13,016 nucleotides of DNA from Spirochaetia bacterium (lineage in GTDB: Bacteria; Spirochaetota; Spirochaetia; Treponematales; Breznakiellaceae). The notes below the pieces were generated by a model. That model saw only the letters and a list, made by a program, of their open reading frames with translations. It had not been told where the DNA came from and searched no databases. The DNA is taken from assembly GCA_025997715.1 (NCBI GenBank), contig BNUY01000088.1, positions 1 to 13,016 of the forward strand. The letters are read 5' to 3'. Shown in pieces: positions 1,169 to 13,016 of this stretch. The position numbers and the translations under genes were made by a program. The stretch's first letter is position 1; the number at the start of each line of letters is the position of its first letter.

Positions 1169-1205
1169 CTTAGGTTATCCCCCCAAAATACCGATACAGG
1201 TAAGG
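1169..1205 (+). repeat. 37-bp sequence duplicated in inverted orientation at 113-149
   Basis: It matches the reverse complement of 113-149 with one mismatch (A at 1198). It ends directly before the ATG at 1207 and includes the AGG that serves as that gene's ribosome binding site. Both copies can be read as LRLSPQNTDTGK in one frame, and the single mismatch is synonymous in that frame (ACA/ACT). The duplicated stretch could therefore come from the 3' end of a coding region rather than a regulatory site. Confidence 0.93.
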
Positions 1206-1206
1206 T

Positions 1207-2739
1207 ATGAATGCCTTGGCCGTATTATACGGAGGAAGCCTCGCGGGGGAAGCCTTCGAACCACTCTTTTCCGGTAAAAGCGCCCTTTTCCTGGCCCTGG
1301 AACAGGCCCGGCGCTTCCCCGGCGTGGAAAAGCTGGTCCTCCTGGGATCGGACCTATGTCCGTTACCTGCCGGTGTAGACCTGGTTTCCCGTCCGGTCTG
1401 GACTAAAAAGACCCTCCTCCAAACCCTGTCGGAACTGTCCGGGGGCTTTGATTGCACCTACTATGCCTGGGCGGACTGCCCCCTCCTGGACCCGGTTCTG
1501 GCGGGGAGAATCGCGGAACGGCATCTGCGCTACCATGCGGAATACTCCTACGCCGATGGCTGGCCCTACGGCCTTGCGCCGGAACTGCTTGCGCCGGGGG
1601 TAGCGGGGATCCTCGCGAAGATCCTGGCTGAGGGTGATGGACCGGTGGAACGGGACGCCCTCTTTTCAGTAATCCAGAAAGATATCAACGCCTTTGATAT
1701 AGAAACAGAGATTTCTTCTATAGACTTGCGGAGCCATCGCCTGAGCCTTACGGCGGATTCCCGGCGTAACGTCCTCCTCCTCTCCCGGCTCATAGAGGCG
1801 GGGCTTTCCTCTGCCAAGGCCCCGGCCACGGACGCCGAGCGGATCATCCCCGCCCGTCCGGAACTGCTGCGTACCCTCCCGGCGTTTTATACCATCCAGG
1901 TTGCAGGACCCTGTCCCCAAGTCTGTTCCCTCTGCCCCTACCCGAAATTCAGTGTACCGGGCTTCATGGAGCCCGACCGTTTCGCCGCACTCCTGGACAA
2001 GATAAGCGCCTTTTCCGGCGATGCGGTGATCGATCTGTCCCTCTGGGGGGAACTTTCCCTTCATCCGCAAAAAGAGGAGCTTATCGCCGCGATCCTTGAG
2101 CGGCCCGCACTTTCCGGTGTCATCGAAACATCGGGGCTGGGCTGGAAAAAGGCCGGTTTGGAAGCCCTGGCGGAAGCCGCCTCCAAAGCTGCGCCGAGAA
2201 ATCGGACCTTAGGTCCGCACGGCATGGCGGCTTTATCCTGGATAGTATCCCTGGACGCAGCGGACCCTGGCCGCTACCGGGAAATCCGGGGGCCGGGTTT
2301 TGCGGAAGCGGTCAACTGCGCAAAAACCCTCGCAACCCTCTTTCCCAAGGACACCTATGTCCAGGCGGTCCGGGTCAAGGGGGTGGAGGATGATATCGAA
2401 CAGTTTTACCGGTCCTGGAAGGAGGAAGGGGCGCAGATAATCATCCAGAAGTACGATGATTTTTGCGGCGCGCTGCCCAAACTCCAGGCGTCGGACCTTT
2501 CTCCGGTACAACGCCGTCCCTGCTGGCATCTTATGCGGGATATGGCGATCCTCATTGACGGCCGGGTTCCCCTCTGCCGGGAAACATTAAACGGTGGGGA
2601 GATGCTGGGCAACGTCTTCACGGAAAGTCTTGAAACGATCTGGGCCCGGGGGGAACCCTTTTACCGGGAACAGGGCGCGGGCCTACAATACAGGGGGCCC
2701 TGTGCGGGGTGTGATGAATACTATACCTACAACTTTTAA
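1207..2739 (+). CDS. Spiro-SPASM protein: nucleotidyltransferase-like + radical SAM + SPASM
   Basis: A 510-residue protein of the spirochete-restricted spiro-SPASM type. Residues 1 to about 190 resemble a nucleotidyltransferase fold: GGSLAGEAF and GKSALFLALEQA near the start, then LVLLGSD and WADCPLLDP. A radical SAM core begins at C236-X3-C240-X2-C243 (CPQVCSLC), which would hold the 4Fe-4S cluster that cleaves S-adenosylmethionine. The C-terminal SPASM region has cysteines at C439, C457, C499 and C502 (the last two as CAGC) for auxiliary cluster binding. The substrate is unknown; neighbours suggest a sugar, nucleotide-sugar or glycan-linked modification. The ATG at 1207 follows AGGTAAGG at 1198-1205. 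The gene heads the overlapping operon and overlaps the next gene by 26 bp. Radical SAM and SPASM assignments are firm; the N-terminal fold assignment is inference from motifs. Confidence 0.9.
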   Translation: MNALAVLYGGSLAGEAFEPLFSGKSALFLALEQARRFPGVEKLVLLGSDLCPLPAGVDLVSRPVWTKKTLLQTLSELSGGFDCTYYAWADCPLLDPVLAGRIAERHLRYHAEYSYADGWPYGLAPELLAPGVAGILAKILAEGDGPVERDALFSVIQKDINAFDIETEISSIDLRSHRLSLTADSRRNVLLLSRLIEAGLSSAKAPATDAERIIPARPELLRTLPAFYTIQVAGPCPQVCSLCPYPKFSVPGFMEPDRFAALLDKISAFSGDAVIDLSLWGELSLHPQKEELIAAILERPALSGVIETSGLGWKKAGLEALAEAASKAAPRNRTLGPHGMAALSWIVSLDAADPGRYREIRGPGFAEAVNCAKTLATLFPKDTYVQAVRVKGVEDDIEQFYRSWKEEGAQIIIQKYDDFCGALPKLQASDLSPVQRRPCWHLMRDMAILIDGRVPLCRETLNGGEMLGNVFTESLETIWARGEPFYREQGAGLQYRGPCAGCDEYYTYNF

Positions 2740-3676
2740 CGAAACCTTACCTTCCTATACGGCGGTAGGTGGCGGCGCAGGCGGAACATCTCCCGGCGGC
2801 GGCTCCGGCATTTCGGCGATACTCCTTAACCGCGGGGGGCGGTATCCCCGGCGAACCCTTTTTACGGAACTGGAAAAGGCGGGGTTTGACACGGTGATTT
2901 CCCTTGAGGGCCCCCAGGACCGCTACGACCTGGAGGACCTTTCAAGCCGGTTCCCCTTTGTCCGGTTTATCCTTCTGCAAGACACTATCAGCCCGGGGGA
3001 ACAGATCAATCTGGGGGTAACGGAAACCGCAAGCCCCCTCTTCTTTGTGCTCTGGAACGATCTCCGTATCCTCCATGGGGGGGACTCCGCCAAAATTGTA
3101 TCCTGGCTGCAGCGGCGGCTTTGTACGGCGCCGGTTATGCAGAACGCCGGCCTGGAAACCCTGCCTACCCTTACCGGCCCGGCGTTCTACCGCTCAAAGC
3201 TGCAAGCCCTCCACTTTTCGCCGGAGGTGGAAGCCCAGCCGACCCTCTATCCCTTTGACGGGGTCGGCGTGTATGACCGGGAACGGTTTGTCCGCTTAGG
3301 GGGATTTGACGGGGCGATTCGGAATCCCTATTGGCAGCTCATGGACTTTGGGTTCCGCGCCCATTTATGGGGTGAGGAGATTTGCTGTACCCAACTGGTT
3401 CGGCTCTCCTATGACGGGGAAGCGGCCCCGGAGGACACCACCGCAGACGCGGGCTACCGCCGGTTTTATCTCCGCAACCTGGCCCCGGTGTTTCGTGACG
3501 CCAGGGCCCATGTCCCCCTGCGGCTTTTCCCCGGCTACCTCTTTAAGACCGGCGAAGGCCTGTCAACGGCATGGGGGGAGTTCCGCGAAAACCGGCAATG
3601 GGTAGCGGCCTATGGCCGCCGCTTCCAACGGGATGCCCATATGCTTACCAATCTTTGGGAAACGCCCCGGCCATGA
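2714..3676 (+). CDS. Family 2-like glycosyltransferase (GT-A fold)
   Basis: A 320-residue protein. I start it at ATG 2714, after a GGGG stretch and 26 bp inside the previous gene; the frame is open further upstream but that part is only the shadow of the spiro-SPASM C-terminus. Residues 19-31 are a glycine-rich low-complexity linker. The Rossmann-like part follows (ISAILLNRGG, then TVISLEG). LWNDLRIL contains N115-D116 where GT-A enzymes usually have a metal-binding DXD. The stretch VYDRERFVRLGGFDG ends in the GGFD motif (196-199) that precedes the catalytic region of many GT2 enzymes, with D211 in LMDFGFRAHLWG. It probably transfers a sugar from a nucleotide donor in the cytoplasm. The non-standard DXD makes the activity less certain. 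The gene ends in an ATGA overlap with the SpsF-like gene. Confidence 0.75.
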   Translation: MNTIPTTFNETLPSYTAVGGGAGGTSPGGGSGISAILLNRGGRYPRRTLFTELEKAGFDTVISLEGPQDRYDLEDLSSRFPFVRFILLQDTISPGEQINLGVTETASPLFFVLWNDLRILHGGDSAKIVSWLQRRLCTAPVMQNAGLETLPTLTGPAFYRSKLQALHFSPEVEAQPTLYPFDGVGVYDRERFVRLGGFDGAIRNPYWQLMDFGFRAHLWGEEICCTQLVRLSYDGEAAPEDTTADAGYRRFYLRNLAPVFRDARAHVPLRLFPGYLFKTGEGLSTAWGEFRENRQWVAAYGRRFQRDAHMLTNLWETPRP

Positions 3677-4368
3677 CCGCCCTTATCCTTCAGGGCCGTC
3701 TTGACTCCTCAAGGCTTCCCGGTAAAGCCCTGCTTCCCCTGGGGGACCGCCCCATGATCCGGGGGGTAATGGAAGCCCTCAAGCGGGTCCCGGCGGATTG
3801 CCGCATCCTTGCCTGTCCCGAAGACAGCCTTACCGCGTTTACCCCCCTGGCTAAGGCCGCGAATTTTGAAATTATCGGCGGCCCCAAGTTCGATGTGCTT
3901 CGCCGCTACTGTCAGGCAATACGCCATTATTCGGCAGACTGGGTCATCAGGGCCACCGGCGACAATCCCTTTGTCTTTACCGATGCCGCCGCCGCCCTGA
4001 ACCGGGAGGCGGTGAAAGCCGGCGCGGACTATGCGGGTTACGGCGCGCTGCCCTACGGCGCCGGGGTTGAGGTGATCAAGGCCCGCGCCCTGTTACAGGC
4101 GGAGGAGGAGGCGGCAACGGATGCGGAACGGGAACACGTCTGCCCCTTCCTCTACAATCACCCGGAACGGTTTCTCCTCTACCGTCCCCCGGCGCATCCT
4201 TCCTGGCAGGGAAACGAAATCAGGCTTACCGTGGACACCCCGGAGGACTATGCGCGTGCCCAACGCTTATATGATGCCCTGCTTTCGGTTCCCCCGGAGG
4301 ATCGCAACAAGGGTGAAACGGTTATTGCTGTTTACCGGAAAACCTTTCATGAGGAGAAGCGACAATGA
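3673..4368 (+). CDS. SpsF-like cytidylyltransferase (CMP-sugar synthetase family)
   Basis: A 231-residue protein of the acylneuraminate cytidylyltransferase family (KdsB/NeuA/SpsF type), which activates an acidic or rare sugar with CTP to give a CMP-sugar. The N-terminal signature LILQGRLDSSRLPGKAL holds R9, R14 and K18 of the RXXSXRLPGK nucleotide-binding loop. RATGDNPFVF corresponds to the GD-X-P metal and sugar site, and LTVDTPEDYARAQRLYDAL to the conserved C-terminal segment. Its length fits the family. The start ATG at 3673 overlaps the previous stop (ATGA) and the 3' end overlaps the next gene in the same way, implying translational coupling. SpsF next to an SpsG-like protein is a known pairing in nonulosonic-acid and spore-coat polysaccharide loci. 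The actual sugar cannot be told from sequence alone. Confidence 0.85.
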   Translation: MTALILQGRLDSSRLPGKALLPLGDRPMIRGVMEALKRVPADCRILACPEDSLTAFTPLAKAANFEIIGGPKFDVLRRYCQAIRHYSADWVIRATGDNPFVFTDAAAALNREAVKAGADYAGYGALPYGAGVEVIKARALLQAEEEAATDAEREHVCPFLYNHPERFLLYRPPAHPSWQGNEIRLTVDTPEDYARAQRLYDALLSVPPEDRNKGETVIAVYRKTFHEEKRQ

Positions 4369-6257
4369 AGCCCGGGGCCCTGTTAGTTGTTCCAACGGTA
4401 AAAAAGAGTCACGGCGGCGGGCATCTGGCCCGGGGATCAGCCATGGTCCGTTCCCTTCGCGCTGCCGGCCGGGAGGCATTTCTCTTTCTGCCGGAGATGC
4501 TCGACCCCCGGAAACTACTGGATATCGCCGGTCTCCAGGGTGAATCCTGGATACTCCAGGGGAAAACCCAGGATCCCCGGTACAATCCGCAGTCTTCCAC
4601 GCAGTGGGACTTTATTATCCTGGACAAATTCAGGACAGACCTATGGGAAGCCGCTTCCTGGGCAGCCCTGGCGCCCCTGATCGGCATTGATGAAGGGGGC
4701 GCCCACCGGGACAAATTTGACTTCCTCATCGATCTCCTGCCGCCGCTCCCAAAACGGGGATTCAATCCCCCCAATATAACGGCTCCATCCCTGATCCCTC
4801 TGCCGCATAATCGCCGGCCTTCCTTCCATAACGAAGACGGTATCTTGAAGGTACTGGTCAGTTTCGGTGCGGAGGATGCGGAGGGTCTCACCTTTCAGGC
4901 GGCCATGGCCTTGGGAAAACAGGCCCATCCCCATGAACTTGCAATCACCGTTATCGCCCCCGGCCTCCCGGAGGACAAAGCCCGGACTCTCAAGGCATTT
5001 TCAAAGGGAACTCCCGGTATCACCGTTCTCAAGGGGATGCCGGATCTCCGGGAACACCTGGCGGAATACGACATTCTGATAACCCATTTCGGCCTTACCG
5101 CCTTTGAAGCCCTCCATGCCCGCCTCCCGGTATGTTTGCTTTCCCCCACTCCCTACCACGAAAAGCTGGCCCGTAACGCCGGGTTTTTTTCCGCCGGAGA
5201 GGGTCCCGCCGCCGCCGGCAATATCGGGCGATTCTTCTTTTCCAATAAGAAAGGCCAACATCTTAACACAAAATTCCTCAACACCCTTGCAGTAGGCTCT
5301 GAAAAGATAGCCGCCCGTTACGGTCTGGACATGGTCCCTGACCGGGACCTGGGGGAATTCCTGGCTAGGTTCAACCCTCTGCCGGTCCGGCCCTGTCCCG
5401 CATGCGGCGCTCCTTTTTTTGTCAGGGATAAAAGCCGGGGAATACCAACCCGTTTCTCCGACCGCACATACCGGCGCTGTACCCATTGCGGTATGATCTA
5501 TATGCATTGCATGTCCCCCCCGGGAATAGAATATGAAACCGATTATTTCTTCGATTCCTACAAGAGCCAGTATGGAAAAACCTATCTGGAGGATTTCCCC
5601 AATCTCGTTGATGCCGGGAAAAAACGGCTCGCCGTGATAAAACGTTTTCTGAATGATGAATCCGGCAGACGTCTCCTGGACATAGGCTGCGCCTATGGCC
5701 CCTTTCTGAGCGCCGCCTCTGCCGGGGGCTTTTCGGTTCAGGGCATTGATCCTTCATCCGAGGCGGTCCGCTTTGTGCGGGAAAACCTGGGCATCTCCGC
5801 CAACGAAAGCTTTTTCCCGGACCCTTCACTGGAACACCCGGAAAATGCGGGAAGCTTTGCCGTGATCACCCTTTGGTATGTGCTCGAACATTTTGAGGAT
5901 CTCCGTTGGGTATTGGTGGAAATCAACCGGCTCCTCGCCATGCGGGGGGTGCTGGCCTTTTCCACCCCCACCTCCGGGGGCATTTCGGGGAAAAAATCCT
6001 TACAAGCCTTTCTTGAAAAAAGCCCCCCGGATCACCGGACCATCTGGAGCCCGAAACTATGTAGGCGCATCCTTGCCCGATATGGCTTTCGGCTGAAAAA
6101 AATACGGATCACCGGTCATCACCCTGAGCGCTTCCCCCTGGGAAACCATTTTAAGCAGGGGGGCATTCTCCGGTATCTTCTTCTATTAATAAGCCGCATA
6201 TTCCGCCTTGGCGATACCTTTGAATGTTATGCAATTAAAGTGAAGTCCCTATGGTAA
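4365..6257 (+). CDS. Fusion of SpsG/PseG-like protein with a zinc-finger SAM methyltransferase
   Basis: A 630-residue two-part protein. Residues 1 to about 320 resemble SpsG/PseG, a GT-B-like fold that in PseG removes UDP from a 2,4-diacetamido sugar. A GGGHLAR motif (H20, R23) matches the catalytic GXGHXXR, and SFGAED (about 167) and THFGLTAFEAL (about 240-250) match the second half. Residues 344-375 hold two cysteine pairs (C344/C347 and C372/C375), a zinc ribbon as in sugar C-methyltransferases. A class I methyltransferase domain follows: motif I LLDIGCAYG (437-445), the acidic end of strand 2 in GIDPS, and LWYVLEHFED. The start ATG at 4365 has GAGGAG at 4351-4356 and an ATGA overlap upstream. 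The reading frame is continuous through the linker, so the fusion is not a frameshift. The likely role is making and methylating a nucleotide-activated sugar. Confidence 0.85.
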   Translation: MKPGALLVVPTVKKSHGGGHLARGSAMVRSLRAAGREAFLFLPEMLDPRKLLDIAGLQGESWILQGKTQDPRYNPQSSTQWDFIILDKFRTDLWEAASWAALAPLIGIDEGGAHRDKFDFLIDLLPPLPKRGFNPPNITAPSLIPLPHNRRPSFHNEDGILKVLVSFGAEDAEGLTFQAAMALGKQAHPHELAITVIAPGLPEDKARTLKAFSKGTPGITVLKGMPDLREHLAEYDILITHFGLTAFEALHARLPVCLLSPTPYHEKLARNAGFFSAGEGPAAAGNIGRFFFSNKKGQHLNTKFLNTLAVGSEKIAARYGLDMVPDRDLGEFLARFNPLPVRPCPACGAPFFVRDKSRGIPTRFSDRTYRRCTHCGMIYMHCMSPPGIEYETDYFFDSYKSQYGKTYLEDFPNLVDAGKKRLAVIKRFLNDESGRRLLDIGCAYGPFLSAASAGGFSVQGIDPSSEAVRFVRENLGISANESFFPDPSLEHPENAGSFAVITLWYVLEHFEDLRWVLVEINRLLAMRGVLAFSTPTSGGISGKKSLQAFLEKSPPDHRTIWSPKLCRRILARYGFRLKKIRITGHHPERFPLGNHFKQGGILRYLLLLISRIFRLGDTFECYAIKVKSLW

Positions 6258-7891
6258 GAGAATTTTCAAGGGGCGAAGGGCTCCTAATCCTCGGCGCCGG
6301 AGTCATGCAGGGTCCCGCCATATCACAAGCCTGCGATATGGGCCTGTATACGGTGGTGGTAGACGGGGATCCCACCGCGAGCGAGGCAACGCGGGCGGAC
6401 CGCTTTGAGTGTATCGACCTTAAGGACAAGGAGGGAATCCTTGAGCTGGCCCGTTCCCTCAGATCCACTGGGACTCTTTCCGGGGTAATGACTGCGGGTA
6501 CCGACTTCTCCGCCACCGTGGCCTGGGTCGCGGAGAACCTGGGGCTGCCGGGAATTCCCTATGAGGCCGCCCTCAACGCCTCCGACAAGGACCGTATGCG
6601 CCGCTGTTTTGCCCTAGCCGGAGTTCCCTCACCGCAATTCACCACCTTTACCGCAGGAACTTACCCGAAAGAACTGCCCTTTGATTATCCCACCGTGGTA
6701 AAGCCCGTGGATAACATGGGGGGCCGGGGCTGCCGCCGGGTAAACTCGCCGGAGGAACTAGCCGCCGCCCTGGTTGAAGCCCTTCGCTTTTCCCGGTCCG
6801 GCAAAGCCATTGTGGAGGAGTTCATGGAGGGCCCGGAATTTTCCGTGGACGCCATTGTTCACAAGGATGAAATCACGGTCTGCGGCTTCGCGGATCGCCA
6901 CATCTTCTTCCCCCCCTACTTTATTGAGATGGGCCATACCATGCCCAGCGCCCTAAACAGTCCCGATACCCGGGCGCTCCTGGAAACCTTCTTCGCCGGG
7001 GTACGGTCCCTGGGTATCACCGCCGGATACGGCGCCGCCAAGGGAGACCTGAAGCTCACCCCGCGGGGCCCCATGATTGGGGAAATTGCCGCCCGCCTTT
7101 CCGGGGGGTATATGTCCGGCTGGACCTACCCCTACGCCTCCGGGGTGGAGGTAACCCGGGGGGCCATCCTCGCCGCCCTGGGCCGCCCCTGGTCACCCGG
7201 CCCCGACCTGCACCGGACCGGCGCCGAGCGTGCCTTTATATCCATCCCCGGCAGGGTTCTATCCATCCACGGCCTGGAAAAGGCCCGCAGCACGGAGTAT
7301 GTAAAGGACATCTTCCTCCGCATAGCCGAGGGAAGCCCCGTCAGCTTCCCGGAGAACAATGTCGGTAAGTGCGGCAACATCATCAGCGCCGCCCCTTCCC
7401 GAAAAGCCGCGATGGATGCCGCCTCTTCGGCCGCCCGCTCGGTATTAATCCGCCTTGAGCCAAACCGGCCGGAAACCGATACCTTCCTCGCCATAGGACC
7501 TACGGCGTCCCAAATCTTTCCTCCCTGCGCCTATACCCTTGGCTCGGAACTTCACGGCTTGCTGGAAGCCCTCCCGGACCCGCCCACTGCTTCCGGGGCG
7601 TCGCCCATTGGAATCCTTCCCTTCCCGGACTTTACTCAATCCGGGCTGCGGGATTATGCGGGAAGAACCCCTGCGGAAAGTCTTGAGGCAATACGAATTA
7701 TAACCGGGCTGCTCCTGCCGATAATAGAACAAGGACCTATTGTGTCCAAGGGGCCTGTTCGGTCCCCTGAGTTTCAGGGCTTAGTTCTGGGCCGCCGGTT
7801 TTGGCAAGCCCTGGTCCGGGGCGGCTATCAGGGCGCGGCCTATTTCATTGATACCATCCTAAGCGGAGGGGGAGGGCAGAACAGCGTATGA
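6251..7891 (+). CDS. ATP-grasp ligase with an uncharacterised C-terminal domain
   Basis: A 546-residue ATP-grasp protein. Residues 11-40 form the pre-ATP-grasp Rossmann-like domain (LLILGAGVMQGPAI, then TVVVDGDPTA). The ATP-binding lysine is K151 in VVKPVDNMGGRG, followed by IVEEFMEGPEFSVD (187-200). The magnesium site is E278 and R282 in GDLKLTPRGPMIGEIAARLSGG. Such enzymes join a carboxylate to an amine or other nucleophile through an acyl phosphate. Residues 230-246 and about 330 onward are less typical, and from roughly 400 to the end I recognise no domain. The gene starts 7 bp inside the preceding one and ends in an ATGA overlap with the amidase gene. In this context it may attach an amino acid or acyl group to a sugar; that is inference. 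Amino-acid ligase of unknown substrate is the safe label. Confidence 0.8.
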   Translation: MVREFSRGEGLLILGAGVMQGPAISQACDMGLYTVVVDGDPTASEATRADRFECIDLKDKEGILELARSLRSTGTLSGVMTAGTDFSATVAWVAENLGLPGIPYEAALNASDKDRMRRCFALAGVPSPQFTTFTAGTYPKELPFDYPTVVKPVDNMGGRGCRRVNSPEELAAALVEALRFSRSGKAIVEEFMEGPEFSVDAIVHKDEITVCGFADRHIFFPPYFIEMGHTMPSALNSPDTRALLETFFAGVRSLGITAGYGAAKGDLKLTPRGPMIGEIAARLSGGYMSGWTYPYASGVEVTRGAILAALGRPWSPGPDLHRTGAERAFISIPGRVLSIHGLEKARSTEYVKDIFLRIAEGSPVSFPENNVGKCGNIISAAPSRKAAMDAASSAARSVLIRLEPNRPETDTFLAIGPTASQIFPPCAYTLGSELHGLLEALPDPPTASGASPIGILPFPDFTQSGLRDYAGRTPAESLEAIRIITGLLLPIIEQGPIVSKGPVRSPEFQGLVLGRRFWQALVRGGYQGAAYFIDTILSGGGGQNSV

Positions 7892-9042
7892 GCAAGCGGA
7901 TTCGGTTCGCACAACCGCAGTGTTTCGGCATATCCCTTTTACTCCTGTTCCTGTCCCTTTCCCCGGGCCTCTTCCCGGAGGACATGGCGGCTGCGGCAAC
8001 GGTAGCGGCGGCCGTCCCGTCCCCTGACCCGGTCCCTGCCGCCGCGGCGCCGGTCCTGCAGGCGTTTACCCTGGAAGATACCCTGAAAATACTGGATGCG
8101 GAACTCCGCTGGGACCCCCTGTTCCGCGCCGGTATCCTTTCCTCGGGTGATCATTCCCTGGCCTTCCAGACCGGAGCCGCAGGTGTCAGGAATCCGGTGG
8201 TGCTGGATAACCGGGATGTACTTACCCTGAGCGCGCCCTACCTTGAGGGTGGCGCCCTGCGGTTTCCCGGCGAATTTGTAAGCGCCGCCAGGAGCGCCCT
8301 GGACGAGTATTTGAAGCAGGACCGTTCCCGGTTCCGCATTGCCGCCATCATCGTGGACCCCGGTCACGGAGGCAAGGACAACGGGGCTTCGGGAACCCAC
8401 ACCGTTAAAGGTAAAACCTTCACCCTGCTGGAAAAGGATGTGAACCTCAGGGTTTCCCGTGACCTCCACGCCTTGCTCCGAACCGCCTATCCTGATAAGC
8501 AGGTACTCCTCACCCGTTCAGATGACACCAGGACCACCCTGGAAGACCGGGCAGTCTTCGCCAACTCGGTCCCCCTCAAAGATAACGAGGCCATTATCTA
8601 CATCTCAATTCATTCCAATGCCTCCCTGACCAAGTCCGCCCGGGGCTACGAAGTCTGGTATCTTAGCCCGGAAACCCGCCGTACCCTCGTCACCGAGTCA
8701 AAATACACGGATTCCCCGGAGGTCATCCCCATCCTCAACGACATGATGGAGGAGGAATTCACCACCGAAAGCATCACCATGGCCCAGCTTATTATGAAGC
8801 AGTTCAAGGAAAACCTGGGCTCCCTCATGCCCTCCCGGGGCATAAAGGCCGAGGACTGGTATGTGGTAAAGAACGCCCGTATGCCTTCGGTCCTGGTGGA
8901 ACTGGGCTTTGTCACCAATGAAGCCGACGCGCTCCTTATGACCGACGATACCTACTTGCGGAAATTCTCCCAGGCGTTATATAAGGGTATAACGGAGTTT
9001 GTTGACATGTTTGAGCACACCGGAGGATTCACCTCTCATTGA
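7888..9042 (+). CDS. Exported N-acetylmuramoyl-L-alanine amidase (Amidase_3)
   Basis: A 384-residue zinc amidase that cleaves the bond between N-acetylmuramic acid and the stem-peptide L-alanine in peptidoglycan. The N-terminus has basic residues and a hydrophobic core (ISLLLLFLSLS, about 15-25), consistent with a signal peptide, followed by an Ala/Pro-rich linker (about 34-58). The catalytic domain spans about 150-380: DPGHGG with H160, E182 in LLEKDVNL, H242 in SIHSNA, and E338 in VELGFVTN, so all expected zinc ligands and the catalytic glutamate are present. Residues 55-140 form a separate N-terminal region that I do not recognise. The start overlaps the ATP-grasp stop (ATGA). A role in cell separation or in opening the wall for flagellar assembly fits the position near flaA. 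T. pallidum has an amidase next to flaA1 as I recall. Confidence 0.93.
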   Translation: MSKRIRFAQPQCFGISLLLLFLSLSPGLFPEDMAAAATVAAAVPSPDPVPAAAAPVLQAFTLEDTLKILDAELRWDPLFRAGILSSGDHSLAFQTGAAGVRNPVVLDNRDVLTLSAPYLEGGALRFPGEFVSAARSALDEYLKQDRSRFRIAAIIVDPGHGGKDNGASGTHTVKGKTFTLLEKDVNLRVSRDLHALLRTAYPDKQVLLTRSDDTRTTLEDRAVFANSVPLKDNEAIIYISIHSNASLTKSARGYEVWYLSPETRRTLVTESKYTDSPEVIPILNDMMEEEFTTESITMAQLIMKQFKENLGSLMPSRGIKAEDWYVVKNARMPSVLVELGFVTNEADALLMTDDTYLRKFSQALYKGITEFVDMFEHTGGFTSH

Positions 9043-9560
9043 AGGATTTAATACCGGAATTCCTGAAAAACAAGGTGAAGCGGCGTTTTTTCTCCCTTTG
9101 CCTCCTCTTCCTGTTCGCTTGTGCCGATTTTTTGCTTTTAGGGCTTGTCAGACGGACTTTTGTATTTTATTCTATAGATGATATCAAAACTCCGGTGGTG
9201 GAGGACCGCATGCTTGTACGGGCCGGATCACGGGAGTATGATATAGCACGGTATGTGGAAGAAGCCCTGTTAGGGCCGGTTTCACTGGATTCGGCGCCGC
9301 TCTTTCCCAAGGGAACCCGGCTTGAGTCCTTGCTATACCGGGATGGGGTGGTATATGCGGATCTGACGGAGTCCGCAGCCATGCCGTCCCTGGGAGGGGT
9401 GGATGTCTTTACCGGAGTATATACTCTGTACGGAGGTATTAGGCGGAATTTTTCCTATGTGAAGGATGTCCGGCTGTTTATAAACGGCCACGAGGCTATT
9501 TCCGGAAAAATTCGTGAAAATTTCGCGGAGAATGGGGATATTTTATCTTCGGACCGTTGA
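9039..9560 (+). CDS. Membrane-anchored GerMN-domain protein
   Basis: A 173-residue protein with an N-terminal hydrophobic segment (about 17-37, flanked by KRR before and RR after) and a GerMN-like domain (about 55-160). The domain shows the typical pattern: YVEEALLGP, then FPKGTRLESLLYRDGVVYADL, and later VKDVRLFINGHEA. GerMN domains occur in spore germination and in many non-sporulating bacteria beside peptidoglycan amidases, where they are thought to bind envelope components. I use the TTG at 9039, which overlaps the amidase stop (TTGA) and has GGAGG at 9022-9026; no in-frame ATG occurs before residue 58, which would remove the anchor. A cysteine at 28 could suggest a lipoprotein, but the hydrophobic run continues past it, so an uncleaved anchor is more likely. 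The flaA promoter overlaps its 3' end. Confidence 0.8.
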   Translation: MKDLIPEFLKNKVKRRFFSLCLLFLFACADFLLLGLVRRTFVFYSIDDIKTPVVEDRMLVRAGSREYDIARYVEEALLGPVSLDSAPLFPKGTRLESLLYRDGVVYADLTESAAMPSLGGVDVFTGVYTLYGGIRRNFSYVKDVRLFINGHEAISGKIRENFAENGDILSSDR

Positions 9561-9584
9561 CAAAAAAGAGGTTTTTCGTATACT
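9557..9584 (+). promoter_or_regulatory. Sigma70-type promoter of flaA
   Basis: TTGACA (9557-9562), a perfect -35, is followed after 16 bases by TATACT (9579-9584). The start of transcription would be near 9591. The -35 includes the TGA stop of the GerMN gene (9558-9560). A strong Shine-Dalgarno (AAAGGAG, 9614-9620) lies six bases before the flaA ATG. The sequence fits sigma70 rather than flagellar sigma28. Confidence 0.8.
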
Positions 9585-9626: not shown

Positions 9627-10658
9627 ATGAAAAGGATATTCATTCTTATCACTGTCGTGTTGTTTACCGTTGGGACGGCGTTTGCCGAGGAAGCCGTATT
9701 GATTGATTTCGCCAAACTGACGGCGGATATCCATGTCAATGTCGGCGACACTGATGAAGGTACCGAGCCGAATCAGAACAAGCAGACCGTAATGGATTAT
9801 GGCGCCACCGCCGGCGGCAGCTTTACCGATGCCCAAAAGGGGTTGATGAAGACATCCCTCGCCATACCCAATTGGGAGATTCAGCTTGCATCATCTTCCC
9901 GTAACGTGGCGAATACCCGCCTGAGTTATGCGAAGCCGGCCCCCTCAAAGCAGTGGGGGGAGGTTTTGGGTATACGGGTTCATTTCCCGGTGGAACCCTT
10001 TAATTCCTGGGCAATTATCAGGCCTCCCTTTGAAATTCCCGCCTACGAGCAGGGTGAAGTGGGTGACGACGGCACGATTACCGCCCCCGAAACTCCTGAT
10101 GTCACCGGGCCTTCCCGGTTTGAAGACGGGTATGGGGTGGTAAAGAACGTAGGGAATATTAAATCGGTGGCGGTTAACGTCTATGGCCTTAATTTTCCCC
10201 ACAGCCTCTCTACCATACTTATTGATTCTTCGGGAAACCAGAAGAACGTACACATGGGCTACCTTAATGGGGATGGCTGGATGGAACTTACCTGGATGAA
10301 TCCTGCGTATGTACAGGAAGTGCGGAACCGGGAACTGCGTATCTATCCCCTGTACCCCGAGGCAACTCCCTATGTTAAATTCGGCGGGTTCCTTGTCCAG
10401 CGGGATGCCGCACAGGTAGGCGGGGATTATGTCGGTTATTTCAAGGATGTAAAGATCATCTACGACAAAGCCGTGCTTGATACCGAAAGGGATATTGACG
10501 ATGAAGCGACCTGGGGCATCATCAATGCACGGGAAAACGACAAAAAGGCCTTTGAAATGTCGCAGTTTGGGCAGAATCAGATACTGCGGTACATGGAAAG
10601 TCAGAAACTGGCCCCGGAGAGTTCCTTTACCCCCACCCCCACTAACGAGCAGCAATAA
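9627..10658 (+). CDS. flaA: Flagellar filament outer layer protein FlaA
   Basis: A 343-residue protein with a clear signal peptide: MKRIFILITVVLFTVGTAFA with probable cleavage after A20. FlaA is the sheath protein that coats the FlaB core of spirochete periplasmic flagella and affects filament stiffness. Its length agrees with treponemal FlaA1 proteins (about 350). Recognisable features are the exported N-terminus, a WEIQLASSSRNVANTRLSYAKP block, GIRVHFPVEPFNSWAIIRPPFEIP, then VKNVGNIKSVAVNVYGLNFPHSL and a C-terminal WGIINAREN segment. An acidic stretch (about 140-160) may be a surface loop. The gene has its own promoter overlapping the preceding gene and its own terminator after the stop, so it can be expressed separately from the long operon upstream. 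Confidence 0.92.
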   Translation: MKRIFILITVVLFTVGTAFAEEAVLIDFAKLTADIHVNVGDTDEGTEPNQNKQTVMDYGATAGGSFTDAQKGLMKTSLAIPNWEIQLASSSRNVANTRLSYAKPAPSKQWGEVLGIRVHFPVEPFNSWAIIRPPFEIPAYEQGEVGDDGTITAPETPDVTGPSRFEDGYGVVKNVGNIKSVAVNVYGLNFPHSLSTILIDSSGNQKNVHMGYLNGDGWMELTWMNPAYVQEVRNRELRIYPLYPEATPYVKFGGFLVQRDAAQVGGDYVGYFKDVKIIYDKAVLDTERDIDDEATWGIINARENDKKAFEMSQFGQNQILRYMESQKLAPESSFTPTPTNEQQ

Positions 10659-10762: not shown

Positions 10763-12028
10763 ATGAAAAAAGACAAACTTCCGGATCGTCAACTCCTGGA
10801 GGAAATGTATGAACAGCGCCAGGCGGCCATGTTCAATGTCACCAGAGACTTAAAGGCCAGTATTGAAGAAGCGGTTCAGAACTTACCCTCCCCCCCAACG
10901 ATTAAAGGCCGCCCCAAGGAATTCACCAGTTTTTTTAAAAAATACATCCGCATCCTTGGAGGTAATGTTCCGGATGAAGGATTTCCCCGAATCACCGACC
11001 TTATCGGTATCCGGGTTGTTTGTCCCTTCCTTGAAGAAGTTGACACGGTCCAGGCTATGCTGGCCACAATTTTTGACATTGTGGAGGTTGAAAAAAAGGG
11101 CTCCCACTATTCCTTCAAGGAATTCGGCTACGAATCGACCCATATCCTGGTGACAATCCCGAAAGCCCTGACGGCAAAGTACGGTGACTGCGGCTGCGAT
11201 GTGGCGGAGATACAGGTTCGTACCTTATTGCAGGATGCCTGGGCGGAGGTGGAGCACGAACTGGTGTACAAAGCCGAGTTTACCCCCTTTGACGATCCGA
11301 TGAAGCGGAAACTGGCGGCTATAAACGCCAATCTTTCCCTGGCGGACATTATTTTCCAAGAAATCCGGGCCTATCAGCGGCAGTTAAACGGCGAAATGGG
11401 GAAGCGCCGGCATTCCTTTTTCAAAAAGATAGAGGACGCCACGGATTCCCTGCTATTTGATGCCGATACCGCAGAGCTTGGCGAAGAAGAAACAGAAGAA
11501 ATAAGCGGGAAATTCAGCCCCGGGACAAAGGGCTCTGTTCTTCTTGAACGCAGTTCCTCCATGGATGACCTGCTCTTGAATGCCCTGTACGCCCATAACA
11601 AGAACCAGTTTAACGAGGCCATTTATTTTTACAGCCGTATCCTGGAAATGAACCCCGGCGTATCGGTCCGCGCCCTGGTCCACAAACACCGTGGGATGGC
11701 TCATTTTGCCCGTTCCCGGTACGAGGAGGCCATTGAGGACTTCTCCCAAGCCCTCCACCTTAACCCAAAATCCGACAAAGCCGCCTATTACCGGGGCTTA
11801 GTTAAGGCGGTACTCCAGCAATACACCGAAGCCGTGGACGATTTTACCCTATCCATCGCCATAAACCCCTACCAACACTACTGCCTTTACCGCCGGGGCC
11901 AAGCCTATTACCATCTGGGCGACTTACCCCAAGCCCTGGCGGACTGCGAAGCCGCCCTGGTCCTGGACCCCGACTCCCATCCTGCCAAACAGTTTTTAGA
12001 AATCCTGCGAAAAAAACTACGGATGTGA
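10763..12028 (+). CDS. RelA/SpoT-type (p)ppGpp synthetase with C-terminal TPR repeats
   Basis: A 421-residue protein. Residues about 40-205 are a RelA/SpoT synthetase domain, which transfers pyrophosphate from ATP to GDP or GTP to make the alarmone (p)ppGpp. Visible motifs are KEFTSFFKKYIR (52-63), TDLIGIRVV with metal-binding D79, GYESTH (122-127), and EIQVRTLLQDAWAEVEHELVYK with E149. There is no HD hydrolase domain and no TGS or ACT domain, so it belongs with small alarmone synthetases. An acidic linker (228-250) leads to at least three TPR repeats (about 270-415), seen as NEAIYFYSRILEMNP, EEAIEDFSQALHLNP, TEAVDDFTLSIAINP and QALADCEAALVLDP, which should bind a protein partner. AAGGAA (10751-10756) precedes the ATG by six bases. 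The gene begins 18 bases after the flaA terminator, so its own promoter is unclear. Confidence 0.9.
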   Translation: MKKDKLPDRQLLEEMYEQRQAAMFNVTRDLKASIEEAVQNLPSPPTIKGRPKEFTSFFKKYIRILGGNVPDEGFPRITDLIGIRVVCPFLEEVDTVQAMLATIFDIVEVEKKGSHYSFKEFGYESTHILVTIPKALTAKYGDCGCDVAEIQVRTLLQDAWAEVEHELVYKAEFTPFDDPMKRKLAAINANLSLADIIFQEIRAYQRQLNGEMGKRRHSFFKKIEDATDSLLFDADTAELGEEETEEISGKFSPGTKGSVLLERSSSMDDLLLNALYAHNKNQFNEAIYFYSRILEMNPGVSVRALVHKHRGMAHFARSRYEEAIEDFSQALHLNPKSDKAAYYRGLVKAVLQQYTEAVDDFTLSIAINPYQHYCLYRRGQAYYHLGDLPQALADCEAALVLDPDSHPAKQFLEILRKKLRM

Positions 12029-12096: not shown

Positions 12097-13016
12097 GCAC
12101 TGTCAACAGGATAAGGCTCAGCAGTTGGATTTGCGGTTGTGTTCGAAGCGGCCTTTCGGGTTAAAAGACTTAGAGATTCGAGGAGGAGAGCGGTTTAAGC
12201 GGACGGGAACAACGCGTATTGCAATTTTGGCGAGCATGCGTTCAAACTTTTTTCTCTGTTTCTTCTCGTCATCTTCCAAGATGCTTTTTATCAGGTCATC
12301 TTTGAGTACTCCTATCGAATAATTGATGTTCACCCGGTATTCATACTTGTTGTTTTTCAATGCCATCCGCTCATCGACCCTTTTCTGTGCCGAACGATAC
12401 GCCACCCCGACAAATTCCGCTATCACCATCTTTGCCCAAAAATCCTGTCGTATCGTCAGCTCGGTTCGCCCGGAAAAGTTTTCCAGTTCCATTTTGTTTT
12501 TTAACACATCATATTCGGTCTCAATACCCCATCGTTGCCAGTATAACCAGGTAAAATCCGCAATGGTGAGCTCTGGGTCCATCACATTGGTGATCAACAC
12601 CTCGTCTTCCCCGGATGAAAGAGGGATTTTCAGTACCCGGACATCTATCACCCCTTTTTTCCACCGGGGACGCCGCATTTTTATCCTATGATCGCCGTAG
12701 GGAAGCCCGTCTATCTCCTGATTAAACCCTCTTGCTACCCGAAATACGAATTCCAGCCCCTTTTGGCGCAGGGTTTTTATCAAATGAAATGAGGGATACC
12801 CCCTATCAGCCAGAATTACCGCTTTCCCAAGGTTCATCTCAAGCAAATTGTCCAGGTGTTTCAATAATAACGTGCGCTCGTCATCCCCCTCTTTCACCGT
12901 GGCCAGTTCTGCCGCCACTACATTTTTATTCAATATATCGTAGAGCAGTGATGCCTGCGCCATCCCATGCCCGTTTTGTTCCCCGAACGCCTCCCGGAGT
13001 TTTGCATCCGATGGCA
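12097..13016 (-). mobile_element. IS4-family insertion sequence, cut by the window edge
   Basis: The element is defined by an IS4-type transposase. Its 3' end must lie between 12029 and 12118. A likely boundary is near 12097, where CACTGTCAACAGGATAAGG resembles the TCAA...TAAG style of terminal repeat seen in this family. The matching end lies outside the window, so the terminal repeat and the target duplication cannot be checked. The boundary is inference. Confidence 0.6.
12118..13016 (-). CDS. IS4-family DDE transposase, 5' end outside the window
   Basis: The frame is open from the stop at 12118 to the right edge, about 298 residues, and the internal ATG at 12963 is not the real start: the codons before it (PSDAKLREAFGEQNGHG) continue the family sequence. 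It is a DDE transposase with an RNase H-like core. The second catalytic aspartate lies in ILADRGYPS (codon 12807-12805). The IS4 signature Y-(2)-R-(3)-E-(6)-K is complete in YWQRWGIETEYDVLK and supplies the catalytic glutamate. The first catalytic aspartate should lie a few residues beyond the window edge. The basic C-terminus (ISKSFNPKGRFEHNRKSNC) is normal for such proteins. No internal stop or frameshift is seen, so the copy may be active. It converges on the alarmone synthetase gene. Confidence 0.92.
   Translation of the reverse strand, partial: PSDAKLREAFGEQNGHGMAQASLLYDILNKNVVAAELATVKEGDDERTLLLKHLDNLLEMNLGKAVILADRGYPSFHLIKTLRQKGLEFVFRVARGFNQEIDGLPYGDHRIKMRRPRWKKGVIDVRVLKIPLSSGEDEVLITNVMDPELTIADFTWLYWQRWGIETEYDVLKNKMELENFSGRTELTIRQDFWAKMVIAEFVGVAYRSAQKRVDERMALKNNKYEYRVNINYSIGVLKDDLIKSILEDDEKKQRKKFERMLAKIAIRVVPVRLNRSPPRISKSFNPKGRFEHNRKSNC

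Follow-up and report, generated by a model that had tools for sequence, protein, structure and literature searches.

Glycosylation of the flagellin FlaB has been described in the spirochaete Treponema denticola, where three FlaB proteins are modified and the 450.2 Da glycan is reported to be essential for filament assembly and motility (PMC9481697), which is why the genes behind it matter. The enzyme PseI (TDE0960) is needed for flagellar filaments in the same species (PMC9862357). Within the portions of this literature available, PseI is the only gene tied to the glycan. The window examined here is the 13,016-nucleotide contig C88 of a 3.4 Mb Spirochaetia genome in 447 contigs with a completeness of 77% (G000), and it carries five genes encoding a spiro-SPASM protein, which combines a pseudo-cytidylyltransferase domain with a radical S-adenosylmethionine (SAM) and SPASM part, a glycosyltransferase, an SpsF-type cytidylyltransferase, an SpsG-methyltransferase fusion and an ATP-grasp ligase. 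Our verdict is that this is a widespread, flagellum-linked operon for tailoring a nonulosonic acid (NulO). With good though not full confidence, we assign the five genes to spirochaete FlaB glycosylation as the operon that activates and tailors its sugar; in most lineages a sigma-28-type flagellar promoter precedes the operon. The genes would add to PseI five candidate genes with predicted steps and a link to sigma-28 control.

Of the described systems, FlaB glycosylation in T. denticola is the nearest. A T. denticola-like genome has the same flagellin motifs as the window genome, a single NeuB-type gene, and homologous SPASM, glycosyltransferase, SpsF-SpsG-methyltransferase and ATP-grasp genes; unlike in the window, its SpsF is fused to the SpsG-methyltransferase protein, its ATP-grasp gene lies elsewhere and its radical SAM cysteines are gone. 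The pseudaminic acid with a di-O-methylglyceroyl group in Campylobacter jejuni (Cj1295) is likewise a flagellin NulO with an O-methylated hydroxy-acid amide; the authors describe an aminopeptidase-like domain in Cj1295, and their main text mentions neither ATP-grasp nor methyltransferase by word (PMC3068675). The legionaminic acid pathway of the Bacillus subtilis sps genes (SpsC, D, E, F, G and M) also brings together SpsG, an SpsF-type putative cytidylyltransferase and SpsE, but it serves the spore crust and not flagella, and the available sections describe no methyltransferase fusion, ATP-grasp protein or spiro-SPASM (PMC7439481). Searches of one literature library found no paper naming spiro-SPASM, and none among the papers listed that links the operon to flagellin by its title or the start of its abstract. 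Also counted among the closest known systems are BtrN, BlsE and DesII, radical SAM enzymes that act on sugar-like substrates.

An earlier note, made from the letters of the window alone, had proposed a five-gene glycan-type operon immediately upstream of an amidase gene and flaA. This set is real (Table 1): the five genes occupy positions 1207-7891 of the plus strand with successive overlaps of 26, 4, 4 and 7 nt, the end of the ATP-grasp gene overlaps the amidase gene by 4 nt, and the amidase, GerM and FlaA genes follow directly. Because neighbouring genes overlap, translational coupling across the five genes and into the amidase is likely. The neighbourhood survey of spiro-SPASM homologs that the note had suggested was carried out on two samples, one of 80 named loci that are the best 80 of 460 relatives and lean to near kin, and one of 80 regions from other genomes, with open reading frames (ORFs) searched using profiles from the window genes and their kin. 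Order was counted at loci with at least 7 kb downstream of spiro-SPASM, one genome (L078 and L113) being counted twice among the loci. Rare co-occurrence, which the note had named as refuting its proposal, is not what was found: the genes stand in order and on one strand at 43 of 56 loci of near relatives and, elsewhere in the class, at 46 of 53, and the order continues through flaA at 41/56 and 44/53, respectively. The association of the five genes is far beyond chance, and the operon is not a local arrangement, as the order including amidase, GerM and flaA recurs across the class Spirochaetia; the proposal of a glycan-type operon is thereby borne out in the form of a conserved glycan operon. 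Departures from the order are also seen. Four loci (L063, L064, L081 and L090) pass directly from SpsF to the amidase, lacking the SpsG-methyltransferase and ATP-grasp genes in between but keeping the remaining order, L186 has the operon without the glycosyltransferase, and L183 and L188 keep little or nothing beside spiro-SPASM. The SpsF-SpsG-methyltransferase fusion is present at all ten fetched loci of the Treponema family f2, as well as at L194 and L207 of two other families.

The link to the flagellum is first one of promoter type. A sigma-28 (FliA)-type -10 box stands just before the spiro-SPASM gene of the window, and the box [GTA][CT]CGATA, counted within 24 nt of an in-frame ATG among the first 70 codons, precedes spiro-SPASM at 114 of 132 loci versus 23 of 810 unrelated ORFs of the same loci; by the same rule it was found before none of 112 SpsF genes and none of 130 glycosyltransferase genes. 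The full sigma-28 pattern scores at least 10/12 in 59 of 131 upstream regions, where 3.6 would be expected from single-base shuffles. The mapped promoter of T. denticola flaB2 has -35 TTAA and -10 CCGATAA and is assigned to sigma-28 by its authors, who place flaA under a sigma-70 promoter (PMC9481697). The window itself has a good -10 box but a poor -35 match (about 2 of 4, by eye). The sequence also contains inverted repeats at 1-105/370-474 (105 bp, 99%) and 113-149/1169-1205 (37 bp, 97%); the 37-bp repeat is a reverse copy of the sequence just upstream of spiro-SPASM, and the window -35 lies at the edge of an inverted repeat. The original -35 region of the window may therefore have been displaced, either by an insertion or by a join made in assembly.

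The distribution of spiro-SPASM points in the same direction. Among 218 genomes of the class, strong matches (E up to 1e-20) are present in 142, all of which have flagellin, while the 44 flagellin-less genomes yielded none, a few of them having weak matches. A class-wide association test ignores relatedness and is not taken as evidence; within-family contrasts are better, such as family f8, in which four g145 genomes have both flagellin and spiro-SPASM and seven g16 genomes have neither. Of the 32 flagellated genomes without strong spiro-SPASM, 23 belong to family f5, which is presumably Borrelia-like to judge from its FlaB sequence. The FlaB motifs VEVSQL and DRIAS are shared by T. pallidum, the T. 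denticola-like genome (G165) and the window genome (which has one FlaB with both motifs and another with VEVSQL only), and the Borrelia-like FlaB differs at both. The T. pallidum genome is identified by a 100% match to a named protein, and G165 is probably T. denticola to judge from its near kin. The same difference in FlaB has been remarked for B. burgdorferi, and Borrelia FlaB has been suggested to carry no glycan (PMC7431986); the distribution of the operon agrees with that suggestion.

The nature of the sugar is indicated by genes outside the operon. In a search of 59 genomes, strong NeuB accompanied spiro-SPASM in 51 of 51 cases, whereas the eight genomes lacking spiro-SPASM gave no strong match (one weak match, G149); in the wider class set it was detected in 137 of the 142 spiro-SPASM genomes. 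Four of the 44 flagellin-less genomes, G239, G283, G335 and G350 of family f54, have strong NeuB but lack strong spiro-SPASM, which shows that NeuB by itself does not mark flagella. The window genome has three NeuB matches, two of them strong (332 and 199 bits). The higher-scoring one (G000:C77:1070-1792) is perhaps part of a surface NulO cluster, and in 20 regions around NeuB no neighbour was widely shared. The earlier note had credited the operon with building the sugar; that part falls away, as the skeleton-making NeuB is a separate gene. Matches to Maf (PF01973) were found in all 30 spiro-SPASM genomes tested versus none of four others, the window genome having four (best 2.1e-25). The dehydratase family PF02719 is matched in 22 of 22 genomes, with E-values of at most 7e-69 in the 18 with spiro-SPASM and of 3e-12 to 3e-7 in the four without.

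From the observed anatomy, conservation, distribution, promoter association and motif states a pathway can be proposed, of which we infer every reaction, every substrate and the order of steps. The NulO skeleton would be made outside the operon by the NeuB/PseI enzyme and its partners, with the SpsG domain in the role of PseG freeing the diamino precursor sugar from uridine diphosphate. The methyltransferase would O-methylate a decoration (an acyl group), which the ATP-grasp ligase would then join to a sugar amine as an amide. SpsF would make the cytidine monophosphate (CMP)-NulO. Spiro-SPASM would probably bind either this CMP-NulO or SpsF, adding an optional radical modification where its cysteines are intact. 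Finally, Maf and/or the GT-A glycosyltransferase of the operon would place the NulO on Ser/Thr residues of FlaB in the cytoplasm, before export. The methyltransferase and the ligase would fit the T. denticola glycan, which is reported to be a pseudaminic-type acid with a 2-methoxy-4,5,6-trihydroxyhexanoyl amide; to make such a structure, the common pathway would have to be supplemented by a methyltransferase and an amide ligase.

An alternative concerns the protein that performs the transfer. The product of 2714-3676 has no Pfam or NCBIfam match, and a profile sequence search of PDB with its family gave nothing firm (best E 0.044), so a fold search was needed; by fold comparison it is a GT-A glycosyltransferase, with polypeptide GalNAc-transferases as closest folds. 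As these act on Ser/Thr of proteins, the operon GT-A protein rather than Maf could be the flagellin O-glycosyltransferase; we consider this rather unlikely, given the presence of Maf in every spiro-SPASM genome tested and its identification as the NulO-flagellin transferase in published abstracts. Further, the glycosyltransferase was not detected at 20 spiro-SPASM loci fetched outside the class, despite NeuB and flagellin in those genomes, and a shared fold shows neither donor nor acceptor. The transfer that the earlier note attributed to the operon may instead be done by Maf.

The acceptor is likely the core flagellin FlaB rather than the neighbouring FlaA. FlaA was considered as acceptor and is not favoured: the T. 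denticola study names the three FlaB proteins as modified (PMC9481697), and the title of Wyss (1998) reports glycosylation for flagellins and denies it for sheath proteins, although a review calls FlaA glycosylated too (PMC9862357). In Leptospira, putative glycans are placed between core and sheath (PMC13144727). The product had also been left as a flagellar or envelope glycan. Distribution, promoter type, co-occurrence with Maf and NeuB and the FlaB motifs all support the flagellar half. On the envelope side, many bacteria carry NulOs on their surface glycans, and cell-wall-type amidase and GerM genes keep the same order behind the operon, as would suit a lipo-oligosaccharide, capsule or peptidoglycan-linked glycan made by genes that only happen to lie near flagellar ones. 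The lack of strong spiro-SPASM in spirochaetes without flagellin argues against such an envelope glycan, and the sigma-28 box and the co-occurrence with Maf also speak against it; we regard it as improbable, and an envelope-only function was discarded as the principal explanation on the strength of the flagellin-less genomes.

SpsF is the proposed CMP-NulO synthetase of the FlaB pathway. Its nearest PDB sequence is 6oew, and its signature residues are kept in 43-47 of 47 rows. Its best NCBIfam matches are of the KdsB type, all under their cut-offs, as might be expected if it activated another sugar such as a Kdo-like acid. However, of 19 class genomes that carry spiro-SPASM, 16, including the 77%-complete window genome, have SpsF as their sole match to PF02348 (CTP_transf_3), and in one of the three exceptions (G185) the second match is spiro-SPASM itself. 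With strong NeuB in every spiro-SPASM genome of the 59 searched, the NulO would otherwise be left with no cytidine triphosphate (CTP)-using enzyme of this family, and activation of a sugar other than a NulO is very unlikely.

The remaining two proteins have conserved motifs consistent with the steps proposed. The GxGHxxR of the SpsG domain is kept in 114 of 116 rows and several ATP-grasp core residues in 94 of 94, these counts covering only rows above set scores and lengths (116, 94 and 134 of 161). A match to PseG above its cut-off was found in one of 59 genomes (G133), and the only match in the window genome, a weak one, is the SpsG of the operon. The ATP-grasp protein exceeds the cut-offs of both ATP-grasp_4 (38.0 bits, cut-off 27) and LAL_C2 (52.9 bits, cut-off 29.4), and a search for it succeeded in 30 of 30 genomes with spiro-SPASM and in none of four without. 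In three genomes outside the class it is fused to a flavin mononucleotide (FMN)-dependent dehydrogenase of the lactate-oxidase family (Table 1). This fusion fits a hydroxy-acid substrate for the ligase, although it is only suggestive.

The most surprising part of the operon seems to be the radical SAM protein, in which the catalytic cluster appears to have been lost repeatedly. The window protein belongs to spiro-SPASM by its match to TIGR04321 over residues 4-510 (curated cut-off 250), with an N-terminal pseudo-cytidylyltransferase domain at about 13-222 and the radical SAM and SPASM part at about 221-510; an AlphaFold model with a pLDDT of 91.2 and its fold matches back this assignment. The SPASM match exceeds its gathering score (PF13186, 28.5 bits versus 21.5), and the radical SAM match falls under it (PF04055, 23.3 bits versus 29.5) with positive fold evidence. 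The CxxxCxxC of the AdoMet cluster is intact in the window protein (CPQVCSLC) and also in Breznakiella homolactica (locus L086), but 41 of 160 distinct homologs, that of T. pallidum among them, lack these cysteines, which makes radical SAM chemistry an implausible core step of the pathway. The same survey led us to reject sugar synthesis by spiro-SPASM as a core step. The earlier note, which lists radical SAM among the functions of the set, is corrected on this point. T. pallidum TPASS_0285, listed as an iron-sulfur (SPASM) protein (PMC5951579, PMC4403809), is presumably the spiro-SPASM homolog, to judge from its name and its position near 300 kb. That spiro-SPASM keeps radical SAM activity in all lineages, with other ligands replacing the absent motif, is scarcely credible: homologs are alignable over the domain and the four SPASM auxiliary-cluster cysteines are complete in 91 of 93 sampled rows, but the 41 rows carry unrelated residues at the three positions (e.g. 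QNL, YSR and SSS) and no CxxxCx2-4C pattern within 25 columns of the motif.

On a tree built from the window protein, 12 of the 80 rows of near relatives and the complete set of 80 rows from other genomes, some rows being long, the state of the cluster cysteines changes nine times, five of these well forced; this is a tree of the quick kind, with 39 of 90 inner branches unresolved and gain not distinguishable from loss. The changes are read as losses because regaining three cysteines is unlikely, and from these alignments the catalytic cluster seems to have been lost repeatedly while the protein was kept. The CTP signature of SpsF was not seen in the spiro-SPASM rows, which are N-terminally trimmed, nor in 11 rows with a mostly fuller N-terminus. 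With a cytidylyltransferase fold and no CTP signature, the N-terminal domain probably binds CMP-NulO or SpsF, and where the cysteines survive, as in the window, spiro-SPASM would add an optional radical modification. This natural series of catalytic losses with kept auxiliary-cluster cysteines offers a way to ask what role the protein has without radical chemistry. A joint reading, possible but put forward tentatively, is that the pseudo-cytidylyltransferase and radical SAM/SPASM parts of spiro-SPASM hand CMP-NulO to an optional, lineage-specific radical decoration of the flagellin sugar, apparently lost at least five times, the protein then persisting as an Fe-S scaffold or as a regulator of the CMP-sugar synthetase. 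Spiro-SPASM, the methyltransferase and the ATP-grasp ligase would together complete a pathway for a NulO with an O-methylated polyhydroxy-acyl amide, common to most flagellated spirochaetes including T. pallidum and absent from Borrelia-like genomes.

Several observations weigh against assigning the operon to FlaB glycosylation in this way. Nine flagellated genomes outside f5 are without strong spiro-SPASM, and five spiro-SPASM genomes are without strong NeuB; these are incomplete assemblies (completeness 73-94% and 71-83%, respectively). The NeuB of the T. denticola-like genome scores under both the PseI and NnaB cut-offs, and the SpsG half of the fusion reaches 35.4 bits with TIGR03590 (PseG), short of the cut-off of 153.55. 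ATP-grasp and flaA lie outside the fetched operon region in the T. denticola-like and T. pallidum genomes, in both of which the ATP-grasp gene is located elsewhere. Outside the class, the five genes occur together at none of 18 loci, which have SpsF in 12, the SpsG-methyltransferase gene in four (one out of order) and the glycosyltransferase in none; one of them, L138, has kept SpsF, SpsG-methyltransferase, amidase, GerM and flaA. The sigma-28 box is missing at 18 of 132 loci, that of T. pallidum included. It is also missing from most of 18 NeuB genes, and a promoter link for NeuB was dropped. The review cited above has T. denticola FlaA glycosylated as well as FlaB (PMC9862357).

Table 1. Features of the window, with ATP-grasp fusions from three other loci.
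Feature	Position	Strand	Evidence or remark
sigma-28 (FliA)-type -10 box, ACCGATA	1190..1196	+	10 nt before spiro-SPASM ATG
spiro-SPASM	1207..2739	+	TIGR04321, 576 bits; AlphaFold model and fold matches
GT-A glycosyltransferase	2714..3676	+	fold; nearest are polypeptide GalNAc-transferases; overlaps spiro-SPASM by 26 nt
SpsF-type cytidylyltransferase, proposed CMP-nonulosonic acid synthetase	3673..4368	+	PF02348, 89.8 bits
SpsG/PseG-like domain (~1-340, GxGHxxR) fused to zinc-ribbon SAM methyltransferase (~344-630)	4365..6257	+	PseG model; PF13489
ATP-grasp ligase with LAL_C2, proposed N-acyl (amide) ligase	6251..7891	+	domain matches
N-acetylmuramoyl-L-alanine amidase	7888..9042	+	PF01520; same order in relatives
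GerM-domain protein	9039..9560	+	PF10646; same order in relatives
sigma-70-like match, 11/12	9557..9584	+	could give flaA its own transcript; consensus match only
flaA, periplasmic flagellar sheath protein	9627..10658	+	PF04620
terminator-like stem behind flaA	10701-10737		consensus match only
ATP-grasp/FMN-dehydrogenase fusions	L224 670-2841; L228 413-2659; L229 998-3229		Cys-rich linker in two of three

The sigma-70-like match before flaA is one of 14 such sites found in the window, with 7.6 expected, and an Rfam search gave no match. Upstream of the operon, a small nucleotidyltransferase gene (PF01909) lies on the minus strand at 807-1169 and encodes what we take to be the kind of protein found in HEPN-MNT toxin-antitoxin pairs. 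A DDE transposase gene (PF01609) is located at the right end of the window, on the minus strand at 12118-12963. Between it and flaA, at 10763-12028, is a gene for a RelA/SpoT-domain protein with TPR repeats, which many of the relatives that were fetched also have after flaA.

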